Below are positions 6,537-26,776 of a DNA stretch of 64,000 bases, piece after piece (position 1 is the first letter of the stretch; the number at the start of each line of letters is the position of its first letter). Source of the DNA: Methanoplanus limicola DSM 2279 (GTDB taxonomy: Archaea > Halobacteriota > Methanomicrobia > Methanomicrobiales > Methanomicrobiaceae). The notes beneath the pieces were generated by a model that was not told the DNA's origin, made no database searches, and saw nothing but the letters and a program-made list of their open reading frames with translations. The stretch is taken from NCBI RefSeq assembly GCF_000243255.1, contig NZ_CM001436.1, positions 2,258,957 to 2,322,956 of the forward strand, read 5' to 3'. Made by a program: the position numbers and the translations under genes.

Positions 6537-9500
6537 ATGAATGACCCCTCCTCCGGCAGTTCAAAGATCTCCGTTCTTTATGTGGATGACGAACCGTCAC
6601 TGCTTGATATCGGAAAGATATTTCTTGAGAGATTTGGGGATTTTAAGGTTACAACCTGCGAAAATGCTGTAGATGCCTTAAAACTGCTGAAACAGAAACA
6701 ATTCGATGCAGTCATATCAGACTACCAGATGCCGGAATGCGACGGACTCTCATTTCTACGCCACTTCCGCGAGAGAGGCGACAATACACCATTCATCATC
6801 TTCACCGGAAAGGGCCGTGAAGATGTCGTAATTGAAGCCTTAAACAGCGGAGCAGACTTTTATCTCCAGAAAGGCGGCAACCCGAAACCGCAGTTTGCAG
6901 AACTCGCCAATAAAATACGCTACGCAGTCTCAAAGAAAAAGAGCGAAGAAGCACTGATAAAAAGCGAGGAGAAATACTTCAGCCTCTTCAATAACGCAAT
7001 ACTCGGCATATTCAGGACAACACCGAAAGGAGTCTATCTCGATATAAACCCGGCCTTTGCCCGGATTTACGGCTACAACACCCCAAAGGAGATGATTGAT
7101 GACATACACAATATCCGCGACCAGTTATATGTAAATCCGGAGGTGAGAGACACCTTCAGGCATATCCTCGATACCAAAGGAGAGGTTAAAAATTTCATAG
7201 CGGAAAACAGACATCGTGACGGCCACAGCATCTGGATCTCCATCAATGCCACTGCCATAAAAGATGACAGCAGCGAGGAAATATACTACGAAGGGACAAT
7301 CGAAGAGATAACTCAGCAGAGAGCCTCAATGGAAGCTCTTGAGCGCCGGATAATTGCCCTGACAAGACCATTTGAGAGCAACGGCGAGATATCATTTGAA
7401 GACCTCTTCAGCCGGGACGAGATCCAGCGCCTCCAGGACGAATTTGCGGAAGCGACCGGCGTTGCCTCCGTAATCATACGCCCGGACGGAACACCGGTTA
7501 CAAAAGCATCCAAATCCACCCGGTTATGCAGCGAAATTCTCCGGAAAACAGAAAAAGGAGTGGAGAACTGCAATAAATCCAATTCAGTCACCGGCAGACC
7601 GGACAAAAACGGCCCGACTATCAGCCAGTGCCCCTGCGGACTTATGAGCGCAGGAGCAGGAATTACCGTAAACAACAGGCATATCGCCAGCTGGATCATA
7701 GGTCAGGTCAGAAACGAAAACTACTCCGAAGATAAAATACGTGAATATGCACAGGAAATTGGTGCAGACGGGGAAAAAGCAGTTATTGCATACCGGGAAA
7801 TTGCCTCTGTGCCGGAAGAGCAGTTCAGAAAGATAGCACAGGTCATCTATACCCTCTCAAAAAAACTCTCAGATCTCGCATTCCAGAACGTCTCACAGGC
7901 ACGGACCATCAGAGACCTCAAAGCAGCCAGAACAGAGCTGTCAGCCAGTGAAGAAAAACTCCGCTCCCTCTTTGAAAACCTTAAGGAGATATACTACATA
8001 CTTGACGAAAACGGGACAGTCATAGAGATATCGCCAAATATAGAGAGTGTAACCGGATATCCTCCCTCAGAATATACAGGAAGGCCATACTACGAATTTG
8101 TCCATCCGGATGACAGAAAAGAGAGAAAAGACCGTTTCCGGGAGATATTATCCGGAAAGATCAGACCGACTGAATTTCGCCTCCTCAGAAGAGACGGCAG
8201 TTCAGTCTGGGTAAGAACAGAAGCCCGTCCGGCAATAAAAGACGGACATCTCTCCGGAATTCAGGGAATATTTACAGAGATCGAAGACCTGAAGATGATG
8301 GAAGAGAAGCTAAAACATCACTCCAGAACCCTTGCTGCGGTAAATGAGATGATATCAGCCGCAAACAGGGCTAAAGACCTCCCTTCACTCTTTGAAAATA
8401 TTATTGACAGGACTCTCTCCCTCCTTGATTTCGATGCAGGAGGGATTTATATCATAGATGAGGAGAGCGGGACAGCATCAGTCGTCTGCTCCAGAAATGT
8501 CCCACAATTCCTGCTTGAGGAGGCAGGAAAAATAACGGCTGACAGAGAACCCTACTACTCACTGTTTATGAAAGGTGAGACTATAATCACCGACCATTAC
8601 GAAGAGATATCACCGGAACATGCAGAAAGAAGCGGCTTTTCTTCCATGGCAAGTGTCCCCCTGGTATCAAAAGGCAGGGTAATAGGTGCACTGAATGTCG
8701 CCGGCAAAAAACGGCATGAGATTACAGACGAAGAAAGGGAGACTCTCATCTCTGCCGGAGAGTCACTTGGCAGTACAATTGAGAGGTTCACGGCCGAGGA
8801 TAAACTCCGGAAGAGCGAAGAGCAGTACAGGGCGATATATGACAATTCCACGATTGCAATCGAGCTTTTCGATTCAGCCGGAAGGCTCATCCATGTAAAC
8901 CCGGCATGCCTTGAGATATTCGGCGTCAGTGACATTGAAGATATCAAAGGTTTCCCGCTCTTTGAGGACCCCAATGTCACTGATGAGCATAAGGAAAAAC
9001 TGCTCAGGGGTGAGACTGTACGCTACGAAGTTGAATTTGATTTTGATACGGTCATCTCGCTAAATCTCTATCCGACAATAAAGAGTGGTTCTGCCTGGCT
9101 GGACGTCCTGATAACACCCCTAAAAACAGATGACGGTACAGTTACAGGCTATCTTGTCCACGTCCAGGACATAACAGATAAGAAAGTTGTGGAGGATACA
9201 ATAAAAAAATCCGAAGAGAAATACCGCAGTCTTGCAGAGAACTCTCCGGTTGGCATCCTCACCTGTGACAGAGAGGGCACAATTACGTATGTGAACCAAA
9301 GGGTTGCAGAGATTCTCGGCTCTCCGGGAATTGAGAAGACGGCTGAGATAAATCTCCTGCACACTAAAAATCTGATAGTTTCAGGCTTTGCAGATATTTT
9401 AAGAGATGTCATTGATACAGGAAAGCCGGTCTTAAAAACTGAGATGAAGTACATCTCCGTCTGGGGCAGGGAAGTTTATCTAAGAATTCATATAATTCCG

Positions 9501-10262
9501 CTCCAGACCGGCAGAAATACCAGAGGGGCAATGATAATCATAGATGACATCACTGAGAGAAAAAGGACTGAGAAAGCTCTGCTCATCTCAAACAAAAAAC
9601 TCCAGCTCCTCTCCGGAATCACCAGGCATGACATCCTCAACCATGTTATGGTCATCGGCGGGTATCTTGATCTCGCAGGGAATAAGGAGATGGGGGAGAA
9701 ACTTAAGGGATACTGCAATAATATCCGTATAGCAAACGATGCAATAAAACGGCAGATCGAATTTACACGGGAATATGATGAACTTGGTGCAAAAGAGCCG
9801 GACTGGTACAGCCCATGCCCGTCAGCAGATAAAAACGGGAGAGGGCCGGTAAATATAACCTGCGAATGTGAAGATATTGAGATATTTGCCGACCCGATGA
9901 TAGAGAAGGTCTTTTACAACCTCTATGACAATACCATCCGGCACAGCAGAGGTGCGGATGAGATAAGAATTTCATGCGGACCAAAAGGAGGAAAGACCGG
10001 TGAAACAGGACATCCGGACTGCCTGATTATCTTTGAGGACAACGGGTGCGGAGTTTTAGATGAGATGAAGGAGAGGATATTTGAGCGTGGTGTCGGTGAA
10101 AATACCGGGCTTGGCCTCTTTTTGATCCGTGAAATACTTGCCATTACAGGAATTACTATCCGGGAGAACGGGGTGCACGGAAAAGGTGCACGCTTTGAGA
10201 TGACTGTTCCTGCCGGTGCATGGAGAATCCAGGAAGGCCCGGATATTGATAATCAGCCATAA
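6537..10262 (+). CDS. Receiver-PAS-PocR-PAS-GAF-PAS-PAS histidine kinase
   Basis: 1241 residues, no membrane segment seen. Order of domains: receiver (about 12-130, acidic pair Asp17-Asp18, phosphoacceptor Asp62 in 'ISDYQMPECDG'), PAS (about 140-260), a PocR-type ligand domain (about 285-450, with 'CNKSNSVTGRP', 'QCPCGLMSAGAGI' and 'WIIGQV'), PAS (465-590), GAF (600-745), two PAS (760-885, 890-1010) and a kinase core (1015-1235, His1031 in 'TRHDILNH', G boxes 'DNGCGV' and 'NTGLGLFL'). PocR domains are known as small-molecule sensors linked to cobalamin and propanediol regulation in bacteria, and the Cys cluster here could bind a ligand or metal (inference). It is one of four tandem paralogues. 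Confidence 0.88.
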   Translation: MNDPSSGSSKISVLYVDDEPSLLDIGKIFLERFGDFKVTTCENAVDALKLLKQKQFDAVISDYQMPECDGLSFLRHFRERGDNTPFIIFTGKGREDVVIEALNSGADFYLQKGGNPKPQFAELANKIRYAVSKKKSEEALIKSEEKYFSLFNNAILGIFRTTPKGVYLDINPAFARIYGYNTPKEMIDDIHNIRDQLYVNPEVRDTFRHILDTKGEVKNFIAENRHRDGHSIWISINATAIKDDSSEEIYYEGTIEEITQQRASMEALERRIIALTRPFESNGEISFEDLFSRDEIQRLQDEFAEATGVASVIIRPDGTPVTKASKSTRLCSEILRKTEKGVENCNKSNSVTGRPDKNGPTISQCPCGLMSAGAGITVNNRHIASWIIGQVRNENYSEDKIREYAQEIGADGEKAVIAYREIASVPEEQFRKIAQVIYTLSKKLSDLAFQNVSQARTIRDLKAARTELSASEEKLRSLFENLKEIYYILDENGTVIEISPNIESVTGYPPSEYTGRPYYEFVHPDDRKERKDRFREILSGKIRPTEFRLLRRDGSSVWVRTEARPAIKDGHLSGIQGIFTEIEDLKMMEEKLKHHSRTLAAVNEMISAANRAKDLPSLFENIIDRTLSLLDFDAGGIYIIDEESGTASVVCSRNVPQFLLEEAGKITADREPYYSLFMKGETIITDHYEEISPEHAERSGFSSMASVPLVSKGRVIGALNVAGKKRHEITDEERETLISAGESLGSTIERFTAEDKLRKSEEQYRAIYDNSTIAIELFDSAGRLIHVNPACLEIFGVSDIEDIKGFPLFEDPNVTDEHKEKLLRGETVRYEVEFDFDTVISLNLYPTIKSGSAWLDVLITPLKTDDGTVTGYLVHVQDITDKKVVEDTIKKSEEKYRSLAENSPVGILTCDREGTITYVNQRVAEILGSPGIEKTAEINLLHTKNLIVSGFADILRDVIDTGKPVLKTEMKYISVWGREVYLRIHIIPLQTGRNTRGAMIIIDDITERKRTEKALLISNKKLQLLSGITRHDILNHVMVIGGYLDLAGNKEMGEKLKGYCNNIRIANDAIKRQIEFTREYDELGAKEPDWYSPCPSADKNGRGPVNITCECEDIEIFADPMIEKVFYNLYDNTIRHSRGADEIRISCGPKGGKTGETGHPDCLIIFEDNGCGVLDEMKERIFERGVGENTGLGLFLIREILAITGITIRENGVHGKGARFEMTVPAGAWRIQEGPDIDNQP

Positions 10263-16175: not shown

Positions 16176-16495
16176 TCTTCAGACGGGACTGTATTTTTCG
16201 GAATTTTTAACGCAACATTTTATCCGGTGAAAAAGAGAAACAGTCAGAAAGAACTTCTTTCTGATATAGCCGGATTCAGTCAGCAAGTACCCCGCAAGCA
16301 CCCCGCAAGCACCCCGCAAGCACCCCGCAAGCACTTGGCAAGACGGAATAACTTTTTTTTTGAAGTAAGAGAGAGAGCAGCCCTTTTTTTGCCTCTCATC
16401 TGCCGCTTATGCCAGTCCGCCATGCCGAGAATATATAATATATGCGGACAATAACACTAACCGGGAGGAGATCAGGTCAGATTGCAGATACAGAT
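16176..16495. other. 320-bp spacer with 11-bp repeats and promoter
   Basis: This spacer holds an array of 11-bp repeats (listed separately), a poly-T stretch near 16349-16356, and a TATA-like stretch 'atatataatata' around 16431-16442 that would serve the gene starting at 16496. A 75-codon open frame over the repeats is not convincing as a gene. Confidence 0.5.
16283..16342. repeat. Tandem 11-bp repeats (gcaagcacccc)
   Basis: Five copies of an 11-base unit 'gcaagcacccc', the first and last slightly changed, followed by a final 'gcaag'. It lies between two kinase genes, upstream of the promoter of 16496. Role unknown. Copy number may vary between strains. Confidence 0.8.
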
Positions 16496-19400
16496 ATGAA
16501 TACAGAAGATATATCGGGGGAAAAAGGATTAATCTCTGTTCTTTACGTGGATGACGAGGCAATACTTCTGAAGGGCGGGAAAATATTCCTTGAAAAGAGC
16601 GGAGAAATCACAGTTACAACCTGCGATAACGCAGAGGATGCTATAAAACTGATATCAGAAAAACCATTTGACGCAATAATATCCGACATCCAGATGCCCG
16701 GACTGGACGGGATATCCTTCCTTAGCCATATCCGGAAACGCGGCGACAATACGCCGTTTATAATCTTCACCGGCAAAGGTAGCGAAGAACTTATTATTGA
16801 AGCCTTAAACAGCGGTGCAGACTATTACCTTGAGAAAGGAAGAGATCCAAAAGGGCAGTTTAAAAAACTGACAGAACAGGTCAAACATCTCGCTGACAGA
16901 AAGAGAAGTGAGGCACTGGCCCAGTCCTTCTTTTATACAAACAGCGATATGATGTTTGTCAAAGATGAAAATTTCAGATATATCACAGCAAATGATGCAA
17001 ACCTGAAATTTTTTGGCATCAGCCACGACAAACTCATGAATAAGACCGATTACGACCTGATGGCGCCGGACGCTGCTGCAGAATGCCTCGAATCAGATAA
17101 AAAAGCTCTTTTTACCGGAAAAAAGGTGGTTTCAGAGGAGACTTACGGCAAACGAATCTATGAGACCACAAAATTCCCGATAAAAATCGCCCATAACAGG
17201 ACAGGAGTCGCAGGAATAATCCGGGACATAACTGACATAAAAGAGGTATCTTACAAACTCAGTGAAATTGAGCACCTGAACCGGCATATCATAGATGCAA
17301 TCCCCGACATACTCATACGGTGCAAAGAGGACGGAACCCTGGCTGACATCCGGACACCTGACGAGAGCCGCCTGATTGTACCAAGAGAAGAGAGCCTTGG
17401 AAAGGCCATAACCGAAGTGATTCCCGGCGAACTCGGCATAATACTGATGGAAAAGATCAGGTCGGCACTGGAGAATGAAAATATTGAAAAGATCGAATAT
17501 CCGGTTGAAACACCCGCCGGACTATCATATTATGAAGCCAGGATAATCCCGTACCTCAAAGATGAGATTCTCGCACTTATCCGTGATATAACCGACAAGT
17601 GGGAGGCTGAAGAAGAGCTTAAAAGAAAGAACGAAGAGCTTTCGGCCGCCGAAGAGGAGCTGAGACAGCAGGTTGACGAGATTGTCAATGCCCGCAATGA
17701 ACTCTCTGAAACAAACGAATATCTAAACAGCCTTATAAATTATGCAAATGCCCCGATAATAGTCTGGGACGCTGACCTCACAATCACACGCTTCAATAAG
17801 GCCGCAGAGTACCTCACCGGAATTTTAGCCGGTGACGCTCTCGGCAAAAACCTTCAGATACTCTTCCCAAAAGAGAAGAGGGAAGCGTCCATGGAGACTG
17901 TCCGGCAGGCTATGGCAGGCAGATGGCTGAAAGGAGAAGAAATTCCCGTCCGGAACCTCTCTTCAGGAGATGTCAAAAACGTCATCTGGAATTCTGCAAA
18001 TATTCTGAACCGGGACGGCTCAAAACTGATTTCAGTCATCGCACAGGGGCAGGACATCACTGAACGCAAGCGGGCAGAGCTTGAGCTTAAAGAGAGTGAA
18101 GAGAAATTTAAGCAGCTCTTTGAGAATATGAGCAGCGGGGTGGCAGTTTTACGTCCGGATGACAACGGTGAGGATTTCGTCTTTGTCGATATAAATAAAG
18201 CTGCTGAGGAGATAGACAGAATTAAAAGAGAGGATGTAATCGGAAAGAAAGTAACAGAAATTTTTCCGGGAGTAAAGGACCTGGGACTGTTTGATATTTT
18301 TAAAGAAGTTGCAAAGACAGGCAGACCGGCATTTCACCCGACAGGAGAGTACAGGGACGACAGGATCTACGGCTGGCGGGAGAACAGAGTGTACAGGCTG
18401 CCGTCCGGCCTTATAGTCGCAGTATATAACGACATCACTCCTTTGAAACAGGCAGAGGAGGAACTTAAGGGAAGCGAAGAGAAGTTCAGGAGCTATATCG
18501 AAAATGCTCCGGTAGGGGTTTTCATTACAGATAAAGAGGGACGCTACATTGACGTCAATCCCGCTGCGGCTGAGATGACCGGCTACTCCATGGAAGAGAT
18601 GCTGAATATGACAGTCCGGGACCTTGCCTCACCCAATGCCCCGCCAAAGACTGTTTTGTCCTTTATAAAATTGAGAGATGAAGGCTCAGTAGAGAGCGAA
18701 TTACTACTCAGAAGAAAGGACGGGACTGATTTTTATTCAATGCTAAAGGCAGTTGCGCTGGACAAAGACCGCCTGATAGGGTTCTGCTCAGATATTACAG
18801 AACTTAAAGAGACCGAAGACGAACTGAAAAGAAAGAACGAAGAGCTTGGGGCCGCCGAGGAGGAGCTGCGCCAGCAGCTTGACGAACTTGTGCAGGCACA
18901 GGAGAGGCTTGAAGAGAGGGAGGCATACATAAGAGCAGTAGTTGACAATATCCCGGTCGGGATAGCTGTAAATTCAGTGACCTCTGAGGTTAAGTTTGAA
19001 TACCACAATGAAAACTTCCTGAAATATTACAGGATTACTGCAAAGGACCTTGATGAACCGGACAGATTCTGGGAGAGTGTATATAAAGATCCGGACTTCA
19101 GAGATGAGATAAAAAACAGAGTCCTGACAGATATAAAAAGCGGTGACCAGAACCGGATGCACTGGGAAGAGATACCCATAACACGTCCCGGAGAGGAGAC
19201 CACCTACATTAACGCAGGAAACATTCCGCTTGAGAAAGACGGTTCTCTCATCTCAATGGTCTGGGACGTAACGGAAGAGAAGAGGTCAAAGGATCAGATC
19301 AACCTGCACCTCTTACGGGTAAAGTCTCTACTGGGCCTTCACAGAATTTCTGACCGGGAGGATGCGGAGATACTGGACTATGCACTTGAAAACAGTATTT

Positions 19401-20824
19401 CCATGACGGAGAGCCGTTACGCATTTATTGGCATTATATCACCGGACGAATCCGGGATGTCCATACACAGGTGGTCCGGGAGTGTTATGCAGGAATGCAG
19501 TGTTAAGGACAGACCAATACATTTCCCAGTCGCATCTGCCGGAATCTGGAGTGAATGTGTCAGAAAGCGTGCCCCGTTTGTAGTCAATGACTACTCGGCC
19601 CCCCATCCTGAAAAACACGGCTGCCCCAAAGGGCATGTCGAGGTAACCCGCTTCCTTTCCGTTCCGATATTTGACGGCAACAGGATTGCAGCGGTAATTG
19701 CGGTTGCGAACAAAGAGGACGATTACCGGGAAGATGACGTCAATGCCGCTGTAAGTCTTGGCAATATGATGTGGGAGATATTCCGGAACAGAAGAGCACA
19801 GGAGAAGATCGAAGAGAGTGAGAGCCGCCTGCGTGCCATCGTTGACAATCTGCCGCGTGGTGCCATCCATATCATGGACAGGGATCTCTGCTATGTATTC
19901 AGTGCAGGGCCTGAACTTGAAAAGAATAAACTCTCCAATGACTTCCTCGCCGGAAAGTCATTATATGACGTCCTTGACCCGGACAATGCCGGAATCATAG
20001 CCTCTGCCCTGAAATCTGTCTTTGATGGAGGTGAAAATGTCACAACCGAAGCGAAATTCTCCGGACAGGACTTCCTTGTGCAGATGGCGCCGCTTAGAGA
20101 CCCGGACGGCAGGATCAACCGCGTGATAGAGCTGTCTGTCAATATTACCCAGGAAAAGGAGGCAGAAGAGAAACTCAAAAAACAAAAAGAGCTTTTCAAA
20201 CGGACTTTTGAATCGCTCCAGGATGCAGGATTTGTCCTCGGTGCCGAACCTGCCGTTATTCTGGCTGTAAACAGTGCTGCCGTCTCGCTCTTTGGCTACA
20301 ACCGCGGGGAGACTGTCGGGAAGACGACAGATTTCCTGCATGTGGATAAGGCATCATCTGAGGAGTATGGCAGGCATATTTATCAATATATAAAGGATGA
20401 GATGAAGATACCCAGGTTTGAGTTCCGGATGAGAAGAAAGGACGGTTCCGTCTTCCCTGCCGAACATTCGATAACCCCTCTGTATGATTCCGGCGGAGAA
20501 ATTTCAGGATGGGTACTCATTATCCGGGATATTACTGACAGAAAGGAGACGGAGAAACGCGAGAGAAAAGCCCTTGAGCAGATTGAGGAGAATATGGAGC
20601 AGCTTGCAACCCTGAATGACCAGATCAGAAACCCGCTTGCCGTTATATCGGGCTATGTGGAGATTAAATGTCCGGATATATCAACAGAGATAGATGAGCA
20701 GGTAAAGCTTATTGATGATATCGTTGCAAGGCTTGATGCCGGATGGATACGTTCAGAGAAGATCTGGGAGTATTTAAAGACGCATTACGGGATTGGAGGC
20801 ATAAATCCGGAGGAGATGAGATGA
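16496..20824 (+). CDS. Giant receiver / eight-PAS / GAF sensor without kinase catalytic domain
   Basis: 1442 residues from ATG 16496. An in-frame ATG at 16442 overlaps the TATA-like sequence, and paralogues also begin 'MN' about 13 residues before the receiver. Domains: receiver (about 14-130, 'LYVDDEA' and 'ISDIQMPGLDG' intact), about eight PAS domains separated by two glutamate-rich coiled coils, one GAF domain before the last two PAS domains ('CPKGHVEVTRFLSVPIF'), then a short HisKA-like helix. That helix reads 'LNDQIRNPLAVISGY', where a true kinase has His at the Asp or Gln, and the protein ends without any ATP-binding domain. It overlaps the next gene by ATGA. It therefore probably senses several inputs and acts through protein contact with the response regulator encoded next (inference). 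Confidence 0.85.
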   Translation: MNTEDISGEKGLISVLYVDDEAILLKGGKIFLEKSGEITVTTCDNAEDAIKLISEKPFDAIISDIQMPGLDGISFLSHIRKRGDNTPFIIFTGKGSEELIIEALNSGADYYLEKGRDPKGQFKKLTEQVKHLADRKRSEALAQSFFYTNSDMMFVKDENFRYITANDANLKFFGISHDKLMNKTDYDLMAPDAAAECLESDKKALFTGKKVVSEETYGKRIYETTKFPIKIAHNRTGVAGIIRDITDIKEVSYKLSEIEHLNRHIIDAIPDILIRCKEDGTLADIRTPDESRLIVPREESLGKAITEVIPGELGIILMEKIRSALENENIEKIEYPVETPAGLSYYEARIIPYLKDEILALIRDITDKWEAEEELKRKNEELSAAEEELRQQVDEIVNARNELSETNEYLNSLINYANAPIIVWDADLTITRFNKAAEYLTGILAGDALGKNLQILFPKEKREASMETVRQAMAGRWLKGEEIPVRNLSSGDVKNVIWNSANILNRDGSKLISVIAQGQDITERKRAELELKESEEKFKQLFENMSSGVAVLRPDDNGEDFVFVDINKAAEEIDRIKREDVIGKKVTEIFPGVKDLGLFDIFKEVAKTGRPAFHPTGEYRDDRIYGWRENRVYRLPSGLIVAVYNDITPLKQAEEELKGSEEKFRSYIENAPVGVFITDKEGRYIDVNPAAAEMTGYSMEEMLNMTVRDLASPNAPPKTVLSFIKLRDEGSVESELLLRRKDGTDFYSMLKAVALDKDRLIGFCSDITELKETEDELKRKNEELGAAEEELRQQLDELVQAQERLEEREAYIRAVVDNIPVGIAVNSVTSEVKFEYHNENFLKYYRITAKDLDEPDRFWESVYKDPDFRDEIKNRVLTDIKSGDQNRMHWEEIPITRPGEETTYINAGNIPLEKDGSLISMVWDVTEEKRSKDQINLHLLRVKSLLGLHRISDREDAEILDYALENSISMTESRYAFIGIISPDESGMSIHRWSGSVMQECSVKDRPIHFPVASAGIWSECVRKRAPFVVNDYSAPHPEKHGCPKGHVEVTRFLSVPIFDGNRIAAVIAVANKEDDYREDDVNAAVSLGNMMWEIFRNRRAQEKIEESESRLRAIVDNLPRGAIHIMDRDLCYVFSAGPELEKNKLSNDFLAGKSLYDVLDPDNAGIIASALKSVFDGGENVTTEAKFSGQDFLVQMAPLRDPDGRINRVIELSVNITQEKEAEEKLKKQKELFKRTFESLQDAGFVLGAEPAVILAVNSAAVSLFGYNRGETVGKTTDFLHVDKASSEEYGRHIYQYIKDEMKIPRFEFRMRRKDGSVFPAEHSITPLYDSGGEISGWVLIIRDITDRKETEKRERKALEQIEENMEQLATLNDQIRNPLAVISGYVEIKCPDISTEIDEQVKLIDDIVARLDAGWIRSEKIWEYLKTHYGIGGINPEEMR

Positions 20825-21429
20825 AAAAAATTATGATGTGTGATGATGACAGGTCTGTGAGAGGCCTTTTCCAGAAAATACTGGAAGGTATGGGATATTC
20901 GGTAACTGTTGCAGAAAGCGGCAGTGAAGCAATTCAGGCTCTCTCCCAAGAACTGCCTGATCTTGTACTGCTGGACATTATGATGGAGCCGATGGACGGA
21001 TGGGAGGTGCTCTGCCGGATTAGGGAGGACGAACGGACAAAGGATGTCCCTGTGATTGTCTTCACCGGAAAGATGCCTCTTCCGGAGGAAATTGACAGAT
21101 ATGGGAAGCTTCTGCACGGTTTTGCAATGAAGCCTCTGCGAAGGAAGGCTTTTGAGGATATCGTCACCGGGTATTTCAGAGAAGATGATAATATTGCGGC
21201 TTTCTGTGAGAAGGCGCTTGATTCCGGGGCTGACGAAGAGGCCGTGAGTGAATATGCTGCTCTTCGCAATAATGTCAGGGTGCTTGGCGAGATGTTTACC
21301 TATCTTGAGAAGATAATAATCTCAAATCCAAAGCCGGGCGATGAACAGAATCCGGAGGTACTGAAGGTACGTGAACTTCTGGAAGAGAAGGAGAAGCGCC
21401 TCCATGAACTTGGGAATATTCTGAAGTGA
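20821..21429 (+). CDS. Stand-alone response regulator
   Basis: 202 residues. I use ATG 20821, which overlaps the upstream stop (ATGA) and is preceded by 'ggaggag'. An in-frame ATG at 20743 would lie inside the upstream gene. The receiver (about 1-120) has the acidic triad 'CDDD', phosphoacceptor Asp in 'LVLLDIMMEPMDGWE', Thr in 'IVFTGK' and Lys in 'FAMKP'. The C-terminal ~80 residues are helical and acidic with no DNA-binding motif I recognise. It is probably the partner of the sensor at 16496, to which it is translationally coupled. Confidence 0.88.
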   Translation: MKKIMMCDDDRSVRGLFQKILEGMGYSVTVAESGSEAIQALSQELPDLVLLDIMMEPMDGWEVLCRIREDERTKDVPVIVFTGKMPLPEEIDRYGKLLHGFAMKPLRRKAFEDIVTGYFREDDNIAAFCEKALDSGADEEAVSEYAALRNNVRVLGEMFTYLEKIIISNPKPGDEQNPEVLKVRELLEEKEKRLHELGNILK

Positions 21430-21539
21430 ATTCCCGGAGAGCATATTTCCAACCATAATTCCGGGGAATAACCATTTACTAAATATTCCGGTTTAATCTC
21501 AGCAGCAACATTTAATTAATATAAAATTAACTGTTATCT

Positions 21540-22229
21540 ATGAGCGATTTCAGTGCCCGGGGGAAGGGGGCTGACGGAAATAAAAAGATAAGATCTCCGG
21601 ATACAGACGATATGGTTGCCGCCCTTATCGCTGTTGACAGGGTTCGTGCGGGAAGAATTGCAGAAGAGTCATGCGGTCACGGCTCTCCCATCCTCTGCAC
21701 TGAAAAACTTATAATGCCGGCACTTGAGGAGGTCGGCAGGCTCTGGGAGTCAGGTGAGCTGTCACTCTCACAGGTCTATATGAGCGGGCGGATATGCGAA
21801 GAGATTGTCGATACAATTCTGCCGCCAAAGGACCCGCAGAGGACTTATCAGCCAAAGATTGGCATAGCGGTCATTGAAGACCATCATACACTTGGCAAAC
21901 GGATTGTTGCATCTGTACTCAGGGCTGGCGGGTATGAGATTACAGATTACGGCCATGGGATTTCTGCTGCTGATCTCGCCGGCATGGTTGTCCGGGATAA
22001 GGTTGAAATTATGCTCATCTCTGCCCTTATGCTCCCGGCTGCTCTCAGTATTAAGGACGCTGTTTCAGTTATCAGGGAGAAGCAGCCCGGAACTGTCATT
22101 ATTGTCGGAGGGGCACCTTTCAGTTTCGATGAAGTGCTCTGGAAGGATGTCGGGGCGGACGCTATGGGGCGTTCTGCTATTGAGTCTTTAGAACTTGTCA
22201 GGAGATATGCAGGAGAGGTGGAAATATGA
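21540..22229 (+). CDS. Corrinoid (B12)-binding methyltransferase-type protein
   Basis: 229 residues, the size of MtaC/MtbC/MtmC-type corrinoid proteins. A helical cap (about 20-95) is followed by a Rossmann-like B12 domain. The cobalamin His motif D-x-H-x-x-G is present as 'DHHTLG', and the later 'IIVGGAPF' and 'GADAMGRSA' fit the nucleotide-tail groove. The gene overlaps the next, an MtaA/UroD-like gene, by 4 bp (ATGA). In methylotrophic methanogens such proteins carry methyl groups from substrate to the CoM methyltransferase. Here no substrate-specific methyltransferase gene is next to it, and the third gene in the run is a histidine kinase, so a sensory job is more likely (inference). Confidence 0.87.
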   Translation: MSDFSARGKGADGNKKIRSPDTDDMVAALIAVDRVRAGRIAEESCGHGSPILCTEKLIMPALEEVGRLWESGELSLSQVYMSGRICEEIVDTILPPKDPQRTYQPKIGIAVIEDHHTLGKRIVASVLRAGGYEITDYGHGISAADLAGMVVRDKVEIMLISALMLPAALSIKDAVSVIREKQPGTVIIVGGAPFSFDEVLWKDVGADAMGRSAIESLELVRRYAGEVEI

Positions 22230-23263
22230 GCGAATATATGACTCCGATGCAGAGAACGCTCACAGCGATGGAGTTTCGTGAGCCTGACCGGGTTCCGCTC
22301 TTTCTCCTGCTGACGATGCACGGTGCAAAGGAGCTTGGTCTTTCGGTTAAGGACTATTTTTCAGAACCGGAATATGTTGCAGAGGGGCAGGTGAGGCTTC
22401 AGAAGAAGTTTGGGGGCGACTGCTTTTTTGGATTTACCTATGCAGCTTTAGAGGCTGAGGCATGGGGCAGTGATGTCATCTTCATTGATAACGGCCCACC
22501 CAATGCCGGAAGGCCGGTCATCCATGAACCTGAGGATATAGATGATATAGCAGTCCCTGAGATATCAGAGTCTCCGTGTCTGTTAAATACCCTCAGTATA
22601 GTTGAGAAGCTGAATAAAATTTCTGCGGGCGATATTCCGGTAATATCTGCCGCAGTCTCGCCTTTTTCCCTGCCGGTCATGCAGATGGGCTTTGAAGGTT
22701 ATCTCGACCTCATCTATTCGGGCAGTCCTCTCTTTGATAAGCTTATGAAGAAGAATGAGCAGTTCTGCATCTCATGGGCCAATGCACTCTTTGATGCCGG
22801 GGCAACGGCGGTTGCATACTTTGACCCGCTGGCATCCCCGGATATTATTGACTCTGAACTGTTCCGCAGGACCGGGCTTTTAACCGCAAAGAGGGTCATT
22901 TCAAAGGTCAAAGGCCCGATGGCTGTGCACCTTGCCTCGGGGCGTGCACTTCCGGCTGTCGGCTATATATCTGAGACCGGCTGTGTGGGTATCGGTGTGA
23001 GCGCCTTTGACGATCTCGCTGCCGTTAAGGAGGCATGCTATGGCAAAATGACGGTTATGGGCAATTTAAACGGGGTTGAGATGAGGAGGTGGACTCCTGA
23101 AACGGCTGAAAGAAAGGTCAGGGAGGCGATATCAGCGGCAGGGGCTGGTGGGGGATTTATTCTGACCGATAATCACGGTGAGATTCCGTATCAGGTTCCG
23201 GAATCTGTTCTTTATGCTATTGGTGAGGCAGTCCGGAAGTGGGGGCAGTATCCGCTTGACTGA
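22226..23263 (+). CDS. UroD/MtaA-family methyltransferase-like protein with altered zinc site
   Basis: 345 residues, the normal length of the uroporphyrinogen decarboxylase / methylcobamide:CoM methyltransferase family. 'REPDRVPLF' near the start and 'VSPFSLP' are family features. In MtaA/MtbA zinc is held by H-x-C and a distal Cys. Here the matching places appear to read 'VHLASG' (Ala instead of Cys) and 'DNHGEIP' (His instead of Cys), so zinc-thiolate chemistry with coenzyme M is doubtful. It is coupled by ATGA to the corrinoid gene and overlaps the kinase gene behind it. I suggest it senses or services the methyl-corrinoid state, but catalysis cannot be excluded. Confidence 0.82.
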   Translation: MSEYMTPMQRTLTAMEFREPDRVPLFLLLTMHGAKELGLSVKDYFSEPEYVAEGQVRLQKKFGGDCFFGFTYAALEAEAWGSDVIFIDNGPPNAGRPVIHEPEDIDDIAVPEISESPCLLNTLSIVEKLNKISAGDIPVISAAVSPFSLPVMQMGFEGYLDLIYSGSPLFDKLMKKNEQFCISWANALFDAGATAVAYFDPLASPDIIDSELFRRTGLLTAKRVISKVKGPMAVHLASGRALPAVGYISETGCVGIGVSAFDDLAAVKEACYGKMTVMGNLNGVEMRRWTPETAERKVREAISAAGAGGGFILTDNHGEIPYQVPESVLYAIGEAVRKWGQYPLD

Positions 23264-25004
23264 GAAGCGGTTTGTCGTCCTCTGCTGCGGGAATATAAGG
23301 GCAGAGGCGGATGAGGCAGTCGCGGGTTTTGAAGGTGTATCTGTCATATCTTATCCTCCCCATTGCGGGCATGTCAGATCATTTTGGGATACTGTGAGCC
23401 GTTATTATGAGGAGGCCGTCTCAGACGGCAGCAGAGTATTTTTCTGCGGGTGTGGATGCCAGAATACTTTAGACATACCGGATGAGGTGAGAGAAAGTCC
23501 GGATTTCATATCCGGAGGGGATGGGGCGTCGCTTTTCCTCCCGGAATTTCTTGTCAGGAGTTATGAGAGGAAGGGATGTATGGCTGTTCTGCCCGGATTT
23601 TTGCTTAAGTGGCGGGAGAATGCATCCTGTGACGGTCTTGACAGCAGGACTGCGGCGGAGTTATACGGTGAGGCTTTATCTGAGGTCCTGCTCATTGATA
23701 CCGGCCTTCATCCCGGAATTTCCGGCGATTTAAAGGATTTTTCGGAATTTACTAAGCTTCCGGGACGGATTATTCCGGCAGGGACTGAGTATCTCCGTCT
23801 CAGGATAGAACCGGAATATCTGAAGTGGAAGTTTGAGAATGAGAGGGCCGGACTTAAAGGGAGGGTTCGGGAGTGTGAGAAGAAGGCTGCCGATTATTCG
23901 ATGGTCGCTGATCTAACTGACAAAATTATCGGCAGCTATGATGAGGAGATGATCATCCATGAGGTTTTAGACCTCTTTGTGATGCTCTTTTCGCCGGAGA
24001 CGGTATATTATATCAGGTCTGACGGCGGAGTTCCGGGTCAGGTTGTGAGCATCACCGGCGGTGAGGTTTTTTTGGACGGGGACGAGATGGAATTTTTCAG
24101 TTCGGATACAGATACGGCGGTCTTCTCTTCTCTGGACGGTTTCTCTGTCAGGGTATCTTACGGCGGCCATATAAAGGGCGTCATCTCGGTAAAGGGTGTT
24201 TTATTCCCAAAATACCTGGAGAAGTATCTGAATCTTGCACATTTTATATGCAGGATTGCCGGCCTTTCGATTACTGTCGCTGAGACGTACAGTGACCTTT
24301 TGCAGACTGTATCGGACAGGAATTATGAGTTGAGTGAACGCAGGAAGGCCGAGATGGCACTTAAGCATTCCAATAAGAAACTTGGGATTTTATCCGGGAT
24401 TACCAGGCATGACATCTTAAATAATCTGATGATAATTCAGGGTTATCTGGAACTGGTGGATGCTCTTGATATTGATAAAAGTTCTCTGCTTGAGAAGTAT
24501 TTATTAAATGTCAGTAATGCTGCTTCTGCAATCCAGCGTCAGATCGAGTTCACCCGTGAGTATGAGGAGCTTGGGGCTGAAGAGCCGGCCTGGTTTGATC
24601 CGGGCATGATTATTAAAAAGATTGGTCAGGGACGGATTCCTGTGGTCAGTGAATGCAGTGGGTATGAGGTCTTTGCAGACCCGATGATTGAGAGGGCATT
24701 TTACAACCTCTATGACAATACGCTCCGGCATGGTGAGGGTGCCTCTGAGGTGCGGGTTTTCTGTCTGCCGGAGGAGGAATCTGAGGGGTTAATTATTGTC
24801 TTTGAGGATGACGGGGGCGGAGTTTTGGAGGGTATGAAGGAGAGGATATTTGAACGTGGTATTGGCTCAAATACAGGCCTTGGGCTGTTTTTAATCCGCG
24901 AGATTCTTGCGATCACCGGAATTACGATTAAGGAGACGGGGGTTTACGGCGAGGGCGTGAGGTTTGAGATGTATGTGCAGAAAGGTGGATGGCGGACTGC
25001 ATAG
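23256..25004 (+). CDS. Histidine kinase with Cys-rich N-terminal domain, coupled to corrinoid genes
   Basis: 582 residues from TTG 23256, which gives an 8-bp overlap with the upstream gene. ATG codons at 23178 and 23214 are also in frame but lie deeper inside it. Residues ~1-190 form a domain with several Cys ('VVLCCGNIR', 'YPPHCGHVR', 'FFCGCGCQNTL') that recalls DUF1638-type proteins found beside corrinoid methyltransferases (tentative). Then come a coiled coil, a GAF-like region (about 200-350) and a kinase core with His385 in 'TRHDILNN', N-box 'YNLYDNTLRHGEG' and G2 'NTGLGLFL'. No PAS domain and no membrane segment are seen. The Cys cluster could bind a metal or corrinoid. It is the likely signalling output of the three-gene operon. 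Confidence 0.82.
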   Translation: MTEKRFVVLCCGNIRAEADEAVAGFEGVSVISYPPHCGHVRSFWDTVSRYYEEAVSDGSRVFFCGCGCQNTLDIPDEVRESPDFISGGDGASLFLPEFLVRSYERKGCMAVLPGFLLKWRENASCDGLDSRTAAELYGEALSEVLLIDTGLHPGISGDLKDFSEFTKLPGRIIPAGTEYLRLRIEPEYLKWKFENERAGLKGRVRECEKKAADYSMVADLTDKIIGSYDEEMIIHEVLDLFVMLFSPETVYYIRSDGGVPGQVVSITGGEVFLDGDEMEFFSSDTDTAVFSSLDGFSVRVSYGGHIKGVISVKGVLFPKYLEKYLNLAHFICRIAGLSITVAETYSDLLQTVSDRNYELSERRKAEMALKHSNKKLGILSGITRHDILNNLMIIQGYLELVDALDIDKSSLLEKYLLNVSNAASAIQRQIEFTREYEELGAEEPAWFDPGMIIKKIGQGRIPVVSECSGYEVFADPMIERAFYNLYDNTLRHGEGASEVRVFCLPEEESEGLIIVFEDDGGGVLEGMKERIFERGIGSNTGLGLFLIREILAITGITIKETGVYGEGVRFEMYVQKGGWRTA

Positions 25005-25108
25005 ATGCTAAAAAAACCTGCCGGAAAAATCAATGACGATGAATGGGATCCTTTCAGGATATAAACTGACATATAACAGAAGTGACAATTAATCTCATAG
25101 AGGTTTTT

Positions 25109-26776
25109 ATGAATATCAATGCAGGTATTGTTATTCAAAGGGTTACAGGCATTATTGAAAATAATCCCGAATATCTGCCTGCCGACAGTGACATCAACAA
25201 AAAGAAGTCATCTGCATTTGTTCTTCTCTGCATCTCAACCTGCCTGGACATCCCTCTGAAAGAAGCAGCAGAACTCCTCACAGAGGGCGGCAATGATGCC
25301 GGTGTTGACGGTCTTCATATCGGAGAGGTTGAAGACGGTGAATTTCCGGTTACGATATTTCAGGGCAAATATAAGGTCAGTAACCTGAAAGGCGGATCAA
25401 ATTTCCCGGAAAACGGCGTTGAAAAGGCAGTCAATACAGTGCAGGTTCTCTTTAACCCTTACCGTAAAGTCTCACTTAATAAAAAAATTGCCCCAATGAT
25501 CGAGGAGATACGTTCATTAATCCGGGATGGATATATACCAAATGTCCGTGTTATCCTCTGCAATAACGGGCTTAAATGGAAAGAACAGGCAGATAACTGG
25601 ATAAACGAGGCAAAGAAGGAGTACGGCGACCGTGTGGATTTCATCCACTTCAATCATGATTCCATAGTAAATATTCTCCAGAGCAGTAAAAAAGTTGATG
25701 TAACATTGATGATGAACGGCAAGGCGATTGCAGAGGATATGAATTATATGCGGGTCCTTGTCGGACGGGTATCTGTAGAAGAGATTCAGCGCCTCTTTAA
25801 TGAATACGGAGATAAACTGCTTGAGCGTAACATCCGGCGTTATTTAGGCCTCCATTCAAACCGCGTAAATACGGCAATTCATGAAACTCTCATAAATACT
25901 GATAAATCTGACAAATTTTACTTTTACAATAACGGAATTACTGTCGTCTGTGACAAATTTGACTACAATGCCTTTCAGACTTCTGACTATAAAGTACAGA
26001 TTAAAAATATGCAGGTGATAAACGGAGGTCAGACGTGCAGAACGATTCAGGAGACGCTCAATCAGTACCCGTCCGGCAGAGCAGGTGAATCAGCTTATGT
26101 TATGATCCGGATTTATCAGCTGCCGGAGATGCACAGGGATTTTGTGCAGGACATTACCTACTCTACAAACAGCCAGAATCCTGTTGATCTTCGTGATTTA
26201 CATTCAAACGATGAGATACAGAAATCACTTGAGATCGGCATGTCAGATCTTGGATATGTGTATAAGCGCCAGAGAGAAGAAGGTGGCAGTGGCTCAAATG
26301 TGATAACAAGTTCAATTGTTGCGGAATCGGTCCTGGCCATCTGGAGAGAGAAGCCCAACCAGGCAAAATTCCGGAGAAAAGAACACTTTGGAAAGCTCTA
26401 TCAGGATATCTTCAAAGACCTCAGCGCATCACAGGCTATACTTGCGGTTCTGATATTCCGGGCTGTTGAGAACCGGAGAAAAAGGCCGGTCGATGAGAAT
26501 GTTCCTGAATTTATTCCTTATGCCTCACATTATATATCAATGCTCATCGGGAGAAATCTGCTGAAAGATAATAATACAGAAGAAAGTGAGCTTTCACACC
26601 GGAATTTTAAGTCCATTGCTTCGGCATTTGAATCTGATCAGGAGAGATATTACAGGGAGGCCCTTGATTCGATATCAACTGCACTCAGAGAATGTTATGG
26701 CGAAAGGCCGGTTTCACTTCAGCAGCTCTCTGCAACTTTCCGGCGTGGTGATCTCCTGGAGATGCTTGGGGTCTGA
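25109..26776 (+). CDS. AIPR-family abortive phage infection protein
   Basis: 555 residues. ATG 25109 is preceded by 'agagg' at good spacing, and an upstream GTG at 25082 is possible. The C-terminal two thirds match the AIPR family (abortive infection phage resistance), with 'FYFYNNGITVVCDKF' and 'MQVINGGQTCRTIQETL' as hallmark segments. The N-terminus has 'GNDAGVDGLHI' followed by 'FPVTIFQGKYK', the D...QxK spacing of a PD-(D/E)xK nuclease (inference). AIPR proteins are thought to kill or arrest an infected cell. The gene stands alone with no obvious antitoxin, and codon use resembles its neighbours. Decayed zinc-finger antitoxin-like copies follow. Confidence 0.85.
   Translation: MNINAGIVIQRVTGIIENNPEYLPADSDINKKKSSAFVLLCISTCLDIPLKEAAELLTEGGNDAGVDGLHIGEVEDGEFPVTIFQGKYKVSNLKGGSNFPENGVEKAVNTVQVLFNPYRKVSLNKKIAPMIEEIRSLIRDGYIPNVRVILCNNGLKWKEQADNWINEAKKEYGDRVDFIHFNHDSIVNILQSSKKVDVTLMMNGKAIAEDMNYMRVLVGRVSVEEIQRLFNEYGDKLLERNIRRYLGLHSNRVNTAIHETLINTDKSDKFYFYNNGITVVCDKFDYNAFQTSDYKVQIKNMQVINGGQTCRTIQETLNQYPSGRAGESAYVMIRIYQLPEMHRDFVQDITYSTNSQNPVDLRDLHSNDEIQKSLEIGMSDLGYVYKRQREEGGSGSNVITSSIVAESVLAIWREKPNQAKFRRKEHFGKLYQDIFKDLSASQAILAVLIFRAVENRRKRPVDENVPEFIPYASHYISMLIGRNLLKDNNTEESELSHRNFKSIASAFESDQERYYREALDSISTALRECYGERPVSLQQLSATFRRGDLLEMLGV

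Follow-up and report, generated by a model that had tools for sequence, protein, structure and literature searches.

The nearest published arrangement to the three genes analysed here is the mec cassette for dichloromethane, as far as the available part of PMC9768040 describes it. These genes (the trio) encode a corrinoid protein, a protein of uroporphyrinogen decarboxylase (URO-D)/MtaA fold and a sensor histidine kinase, and they lie in a stretch of 64,000 nucleotides from Methanoplanus limicola DSM 2279 (the window), which is part of one 3,200,946-base contig of this Methanomicrobiales genome. Like the trio, the mec cassette groups two-component genes (PocR kinase, response regulator) with corrinoid and URO-D-superfamily proteins in one cluster, the role of MecC being unclear. 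Set beside the trio by description, it differs in that its kinase is a PocR protein and that a second methyltransferase (MTII) is present. The substrate (chloromethane) methyltransferase CdmB of Acetobacterium dehalogenans (PDB 9RUI) is, like the URO-D-fold protein of the trio, a zinc-free member of the URO-D superfamily. It works with a separate corrinoid protein, to whose cobalt it is thought to guide the substrate, but it belongs to a metabolic system with MTII and has only a remote sequence relation to the trio protein. The regulation of such systems is largely unexplored according to the CdmB paper (PMC13222342, available in part). MtaA and MtbA (PDB 4AY7/4AY8) have the same fold as the trio protein; their zinc ligands follow the pattern HxC...C.

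On the signalling side, the input domain of the trio kinase belongs to the same family, DUF1638, as proteins of split methionine synthase and glycine betaine systems (parts of PMC5764234 and PMC12478193). There DUF1638 is free-standing, whereas in the trio it is fused to GAF and to a kinase or GGDEF domain. In Phaeobacter, a DUF1638 gene adjoining the gene for the B12-binding subunit of a split methionine synthase is required for methionine synthesis, and fitness data tie it to B12 reactivation together with a RamA-like protein, the accessible text making no specific proposal (PMC5764234). The Ruegeria DUF1638 is described in like manner in what is available of PMC12478193. MsmS and RdmS of Methanosarcina are sensor kinases tied to methyltransferases, as is the trio kinase, but the part of PMC11784639 at hand describes neither DUF1638 nor a partner corrinoid/URO-D pair for them. 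Every component family of the trio is known, and their combination is apparently undescribed: no published account was found in the open PMC literature, outside which lie most subscription papers and bioRxiv, and the main text of a census of archaeal two-component systems contains none of the terms corrinoid, B12, cobalamin and methyltransferase.

In the window, the trio and the domains of its kinase are laid out as follows.

21540..22229, plus strand: corrinoid protein gene (open reading frame [ORF]; Pfam B12-binding_2 cap and B12-binding Rossmann domain)
22226..23263, plus strand: gene of the URO-D/MtaA-fold protein, without the MtaA zinc cysteines (A237, H317; ORF, Pfam, alignment and structure model)
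23256..25004, plus strand: sensor histidine kinase gene, DUF1638-GAF-DHp-CA (preferred start TTG 23256; ORF open from GTG 23178)
23262..23837, plus strand: predicted divergent DUF1638 input domain (Cys codons at 23286, 23364, 23451 and 23457)
23931..24296, plus strand: GAF domain of the kinase (residues 224-345 of the structure model)
24408..24422, plus strand: kinase H-box HDILN with the phosphoacceptor His (motif and relatives)
24687..24980, plus strand: HATPase_c catalytic domain with N-box (NLYDN), DDGGG and GSNTGLGL (Pfam and motifs)

A sequence-only reading of this DNA had described these genes as coupled by overlaps of 4 and 8 bp, and the ORFs agree with it. The overlap between the corrinoid and URO-D genes is exactly 4 bp. 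The first residue at which the kinase resembles its relatives is the one encoded from 23262, and taking the in-frame TTG at 23256 as the start makes the second overlap 8 bp.

We then looked at the distribution of the trio, which the same reading had proposed to check in hydrogenotrophic methanogens. Relatives of the N-terminal kinase domain were found in 24 of the 232 Methanomicrobiales genomes with a single sequence and in 30 with a profile. At 27 of these 30 loci (23 out of 24 in the first set, which includes the window, and four of the six further ones) the trio is intact, in the same order and on the same strand. At one locus (L037) the corrinoid gene and the 5' third of the URO-D gene are missing, another (L177) is interrupted by a contig end, and the last of the 30 (L180) has the kinase but neither of its two partners. 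The trio also reaches far beyond methanogens. Scanning one genome per species (GTDB), we obtained 390 relatives of the URO-D-fold protein and examined the best 80 of them. All 80 have a corrinoid gene directly upstream, 69 have a DUF1638 domain downstream, and 77 have downstream either DUF1638 or a match to the C-terminal part of the window kinase. Two of the three others lie on contigs that end within 103 bases, and the third (L070) is followed by 4.5 kb without a kinase-like match. Ten of the 80 loci appear, as judged without sequence comparison, to repeat loci of the order; without them the figures are 70/70 for the corrinoid gene, 67/70 for a kinase-like match and 59/70 for DUF1638. One of the two DUF1638 profiles behind the count of 69 was built partly from the same loci, the independent figure being the 59 out of 74 wider downstream kinases or cyclases that match Pfam PF07796 (DUF1638).

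Among these best 80 of 390, the trio occurs in bacteria of many phyla and in three groups of archaea. The bacterial hosts include Thiocapsa, Allochromatium, Desulfonema, Heliophilum, Geomonas, Magnetobacterium, Chloroflexota and methanotrophs, and the archaeal hosts outside the order include Methanosarcinaceae and Methanomassiliicoccales; some of the hosts are isolates. The same gene order and overlaps in unrelated organisms are more than chance would give, and the trio is a conserved module and not a local accident. The distance matrices of the three domains correlate with r of 0.70-0.73 (n = 72), the maximum of 500 permutations being 0.21-0.26, as expected of a unit inherited together. In two Desulfobulbaceae (L102 and L110), a second URO-D-fold gene lies 5' of the trio.

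Of the three, the middle protein shows the strongest conservation, with a mean column identity of 65%; the corrinoid protein reaches 49% and the DUF1638 domain 46%. It matches Pfam URO-D (PF01208) with 172.7 bits against a gathering threshold of 23.9 (E = 1.4e-50), and the closest fold to its structure model (pLDDT 94.7) is MtaA (VIA Z 40.8, rmsd 2.2, 333 residues), followed by URO-D (VIA Z up to 36.8). A profile match to MtaA/MtbA (E = 2.2e-18) agrees with this, and the NCBIfam models for MtaA (83.5 bits, cut-off 400), MtbA (64.7, cut-off 600) and MtaA/CmuA (100.3, cut-off 235.4) all score far below their cut-offs. The uroporphyrinogen decarboxylase (hemE) model TIGR01464 gave 36.9 of the required 302.95 bits. 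The sequence-only reading had called this protein methyltransferase-like; it lacks the zinc ligands of MtaA. In the 94 aligned sequences, Cys235 of MtaA is replaced by Ala in 90 and by Gly in 4, and Cys311 by His in all, giving (H)xA...H; the ligand His233 is retained in 80. This zinc-site alignment takes as its reference an MtaA-like protein encoded in a related genome (L140), which at 334.8 bits is itself below the 400-bit MtaA cut-off. The motif HGEIP is invariant, and so are the residues H317 and E319. With both zinc cysteines gone, the middle protein is not a standard coenzyme M methyltransferase, and the question of the methyl donor shifts to the URO-D-fold protein itself, which may be a substrate (MTI-type) enzyme. 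The loss of the zinc site would be compatible with corrinoid methylation, since the zinc-free CdmB is a proven MTI. With the CdmB homologue of the same genome, hhalign gave a probability of 86% for a local profile match only, and CdmB was not among the PDB sequence matches of the middle protein at E ≤ 0.001.

The corrinoid protein has the helical cap and B12 domain of methyl-carrying corrinoid proteins (Pfam and motifs). Its nearest PDB relatives are trimethylamine and monomethylamine corrinoid proteins, and B12 photoreceptors are also found among them. The cobalt lower-ligand motif DxHxxG (D114, H116, G119) and the SxL and GG motifs are invariant in 22 out of 22 relatives. We therefore regard it as a predicted methyl-carrying corrinoid binder.

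The Cys-rich N-terminal domain that the sequence-only reading had noticed in the kinase holds 8 Cys within about 130 residues. By its relatives, it is a divergent DUF1638: PF07796 was matched by 17 of the 23 relatives in the order (best E = 2e-7), in addition to the wider kinases and cyclases mentioned above. A search of the M. limicola genome with PF07796 gave no match, and a DUF1638 profile found nothing meaningful among PDB sequences (best E = 0.84). We aligned 34 kinase-type and 25 free-standing archaeal domains. In the kinase rows, C9 is Cys in 34/34, E15 is Glu in 33/34 and C35 is Cys in 32/34; all 25 free-standing domains have Cys at C66 and C88, and methanogen kinases are without C88 and mostly have C64 in its place. 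This is suggestive of cysteines that bind a metal or are redox-active. The GAF domain is assigned from the kinase model (pLDDT 90.7; VIA Z 15.6, rmsd 2.6, 117 residues), and the fold search of the DUF1638-GAF model was dominated by GAF matches and barely probes the DUF1638 part. Further downstream, the H-, N- and G-boxes are all intact, HATPase_c is matched at 1.8e-9 and HisKA falls below the cut-off (E = 0.035).

This input part is joined to different outputs. The 74 downstream proteins hold HATPase_c (48), HisKA (34), GGDEF (11) and Response_reg (11) domains by Pfam, and the GGDEF fusions of DUF1638 occur in bacteria. Three archaeal kinases that have an H-box and DxGxG also matched a GGDEF regular expression; we counted them as kinases. 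On the poorly resolved tree of URO-D-fold relatives, at least 6 changes between histidine kinase and GGDEF were counted, a figure that is indicative because every long non-GGDEF protein was labelled as histidine kinase, 38 of the 90 inner branches were open and 25 rows were ungrouped. DUF1638 and GAF joined to interchangeable outputs is the pattern that a signal-input domain would be expected to show.

Judging from these sequences and models, it is very probable that the trio is a sensory or signalling module, and the third member, a signalling protein with a B12-linked input, fits the unit that the sequence-only reading had seen. That a methyl-corrinoid state is the signal, as the same reading had suggested, can be stated with less assurance. 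With odds slightly in favour, we propose that DUF1638-GAF reads a change in the corrinoid protein, its methylation or a redox shift, that depends on the substrate. On the precedent of CdmB, the URO-D-fold protein would be an MTI-like detector of one conserved small molecule: it would bind one particular ligand, probably a methyl donor, and pass the methyl group to the corrinoid protein or otherwise alter its cobalt state. The DUF1638 domain of the kinase would dock on the corrinoid protein and read this state, possibly through its conserved Cys site. The state would then be passed through GAF and a long connecting helix to the DHp/CA core, and the kinase would signal to response regulators, for instance the REC-MetOD2 protein encoded directly upstream. 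A bolder and more tentative proposal is a chemosensor class common to archaea and bacteria, which would use half of a corrinoid methyl transfer as detector. The methyl-Co(III) mark on the carrier would store the encounter with one conserved methylated compound, its readout by DUF1638 would drive histidine kinases or diguanylate cyclases, and hydrogenotrophic methanogens, sulfate reducers, sulfur bacteria and methylotrophs would all sense the same compound. The ways in which anaerobes detect methylated compounds are for the most part still to be worked out, and the trio is a possible route for many of them. A sensor based on a reaction, with a corrinoid protein and a methyltransferase fold devoid of zinc as its parts, would add a new kind of input to two-component and cyclic di-GMP signalling and give DUF1638 a testable role in reading or reactivating corrinoid proteins. 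It would also account for many URO-D family or cobalamin-dependent annotations in genomes without methylotrophy.

We weighed three other explanations. URO-D and corrinoid proteins are normally enzymes, and in the mec cassette their like stand beside a kinase and a regulator, so the two proteins might carry metabolic flux while the kinase merely controls their expression. We consider this unlikely: clustering of the neighbours brought up no recurring MTII, activase or transporter, the acceptor site of MtaA is gone in every aligned sequence, the kinase bears a B12-linked domain, and the hosts have unrelated metabolisms with outputs that switch to GGDEF. Furthermore, the trio is not associated with the Cdm-like systems of the order, which occur in 12 of the 232 genomes, 2 of them also with the trio, where about 1.6 would be expected. 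A redox or oxygen sensor, in which the cobalt state of the corrinoid or a metal bound to DUF1638 would report redox and the URO-D protein would be a scaffold with no methyl substrate, appears unlikely. The conserved C9, C35 and C66 with C88 or, in methanogens, C64 are in its favour, as are the hosts, mostly anaerobes or living at redox gradients, the tie of DUF1638 to B12 reactivation (PMC5764234, in part) and, by the title of its publication, the thiol-based redox sensing of the methyltransferase-associated kinase RdmS. However, the strong conservation of the supposed scaffold and its invariant HGEIP suggest a specific ligand or reaction. A sensor of B12 availability or light of CarH type would account for a separate corrinoid protein with a helical cap and for the photoreceptors among its PDB relatives. 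The CarH/LitR B12 photoreceptors carry the cap motif W-x9-EH, but this position reads W-x9-[VI]Y in all 22 rows of the corrinoid protein, and its nearest PDB relatives are methylamine corrinoid proteins, which makes this explanation highly improbable.

Several observations weigh against the sensor itself. The window's own N-terminal kinase domain matched no Pfam family at E ≤ 10, so its assignment to DUF1638 rests on its relatives. DUF1638 was undetected in 11 of the 80 loci, and 8 of these have another kinase; DUF1638 is therefore not indispensable. Conversely, one DUF1638-like histidine kinase (L180, 7496-9277) has neither corrinoid nor URO-D neighbours. Correlated distances would also arise if a single operon was simply inherited as a whole. 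The genome has one RamA-like activase only, about 0.8 Mb from the trio, and none was seen at the trio itself. In the neighbour clustering (103 loci), no target gene recurs, nor any family besides signalling proteins, and this negative is weak because the methyltransferase gene was missed in 16 of the 103 loci through antisense ORFs. The one informative context, which speaks for the sensor, is on the plasmid pAZKH of Azoarcus sp. KH32C (246000-295000, L182). There the trio is part of a methylotrophy island that also carries RuBisCO, fae, fhc genes (tetrahydromethanopterin) and a PQQ methanol/ethanol dehydrogenase, and its place is between fae/fhc and the dehydrogenase region. This is a single case, since no one-carbon genes were found among 20 flanking proteins of nine other proteobacterial loci (of 73 selected), these being housekeeping or further signalling genes. 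Methanol was dropped as a general ligand, the trio being in a methanol island in Azoarcus only.

The following features lie 5' of the trio in the window.

20743..21429, plus strand: response regulator REC + MetOD2, directly 5' of the trio; candidate partner
16442..20824, plus strand: REC-PAS(n)-GAF protein, 5' of the trio; possible co-member
21430..21539, plus strand: 110-bp gap with an A+T-rich stretch 5' of the corrinoid gene; possible promoter, by reading

The REC-PAS and REC-MetOD2 genes precede the trio in the sister species too, and a PAS or kinase gene is often found 5' of it in other relatives. The PocR-containing kinase that the sequence-only reading had mentioned is a REC-PocR-PAS-GAF histidine kinase (6537-10262) that heads a run of large kinases up to the trio. 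As the sequence-only reading had also stated, no methylamine or methanol methyltransferase was found among the 16 window proteins scanned with Pfam, a subset of the window ORFs, and none recurs at the loci of relatives.

Elsewhere in the M. limicola genome, at about 1.456-1.463 Mb (L143, 5276-12335), genes for an MtrH-like protein, a RamA-like activase, a corrinoid protein and a CdmB homologue (phmmer 6.5e-76 to PDB 9RUI) are clustered, possibly as a chloromethane or O-demethylase-like system. A functional link of the trio to this cluster was dropped for lack of co-occurrence. A second corrinoid protein is encoded at L142 8921-9559; the handful of adjacent ORFs that were scanned (DUF711, Fic, S41 peptidase) included no methyltransferase. 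In a further genome from the same family (G119, C3:296980-312964), seven CdmB-like matches stand in tandem, at least one with an internal stop. Finally, the gene directly 3' of the trio in the window (25082-26776), outside the module, belongs to the AIPR family and shows a weak likeness to the anti-phage protein MzaE.

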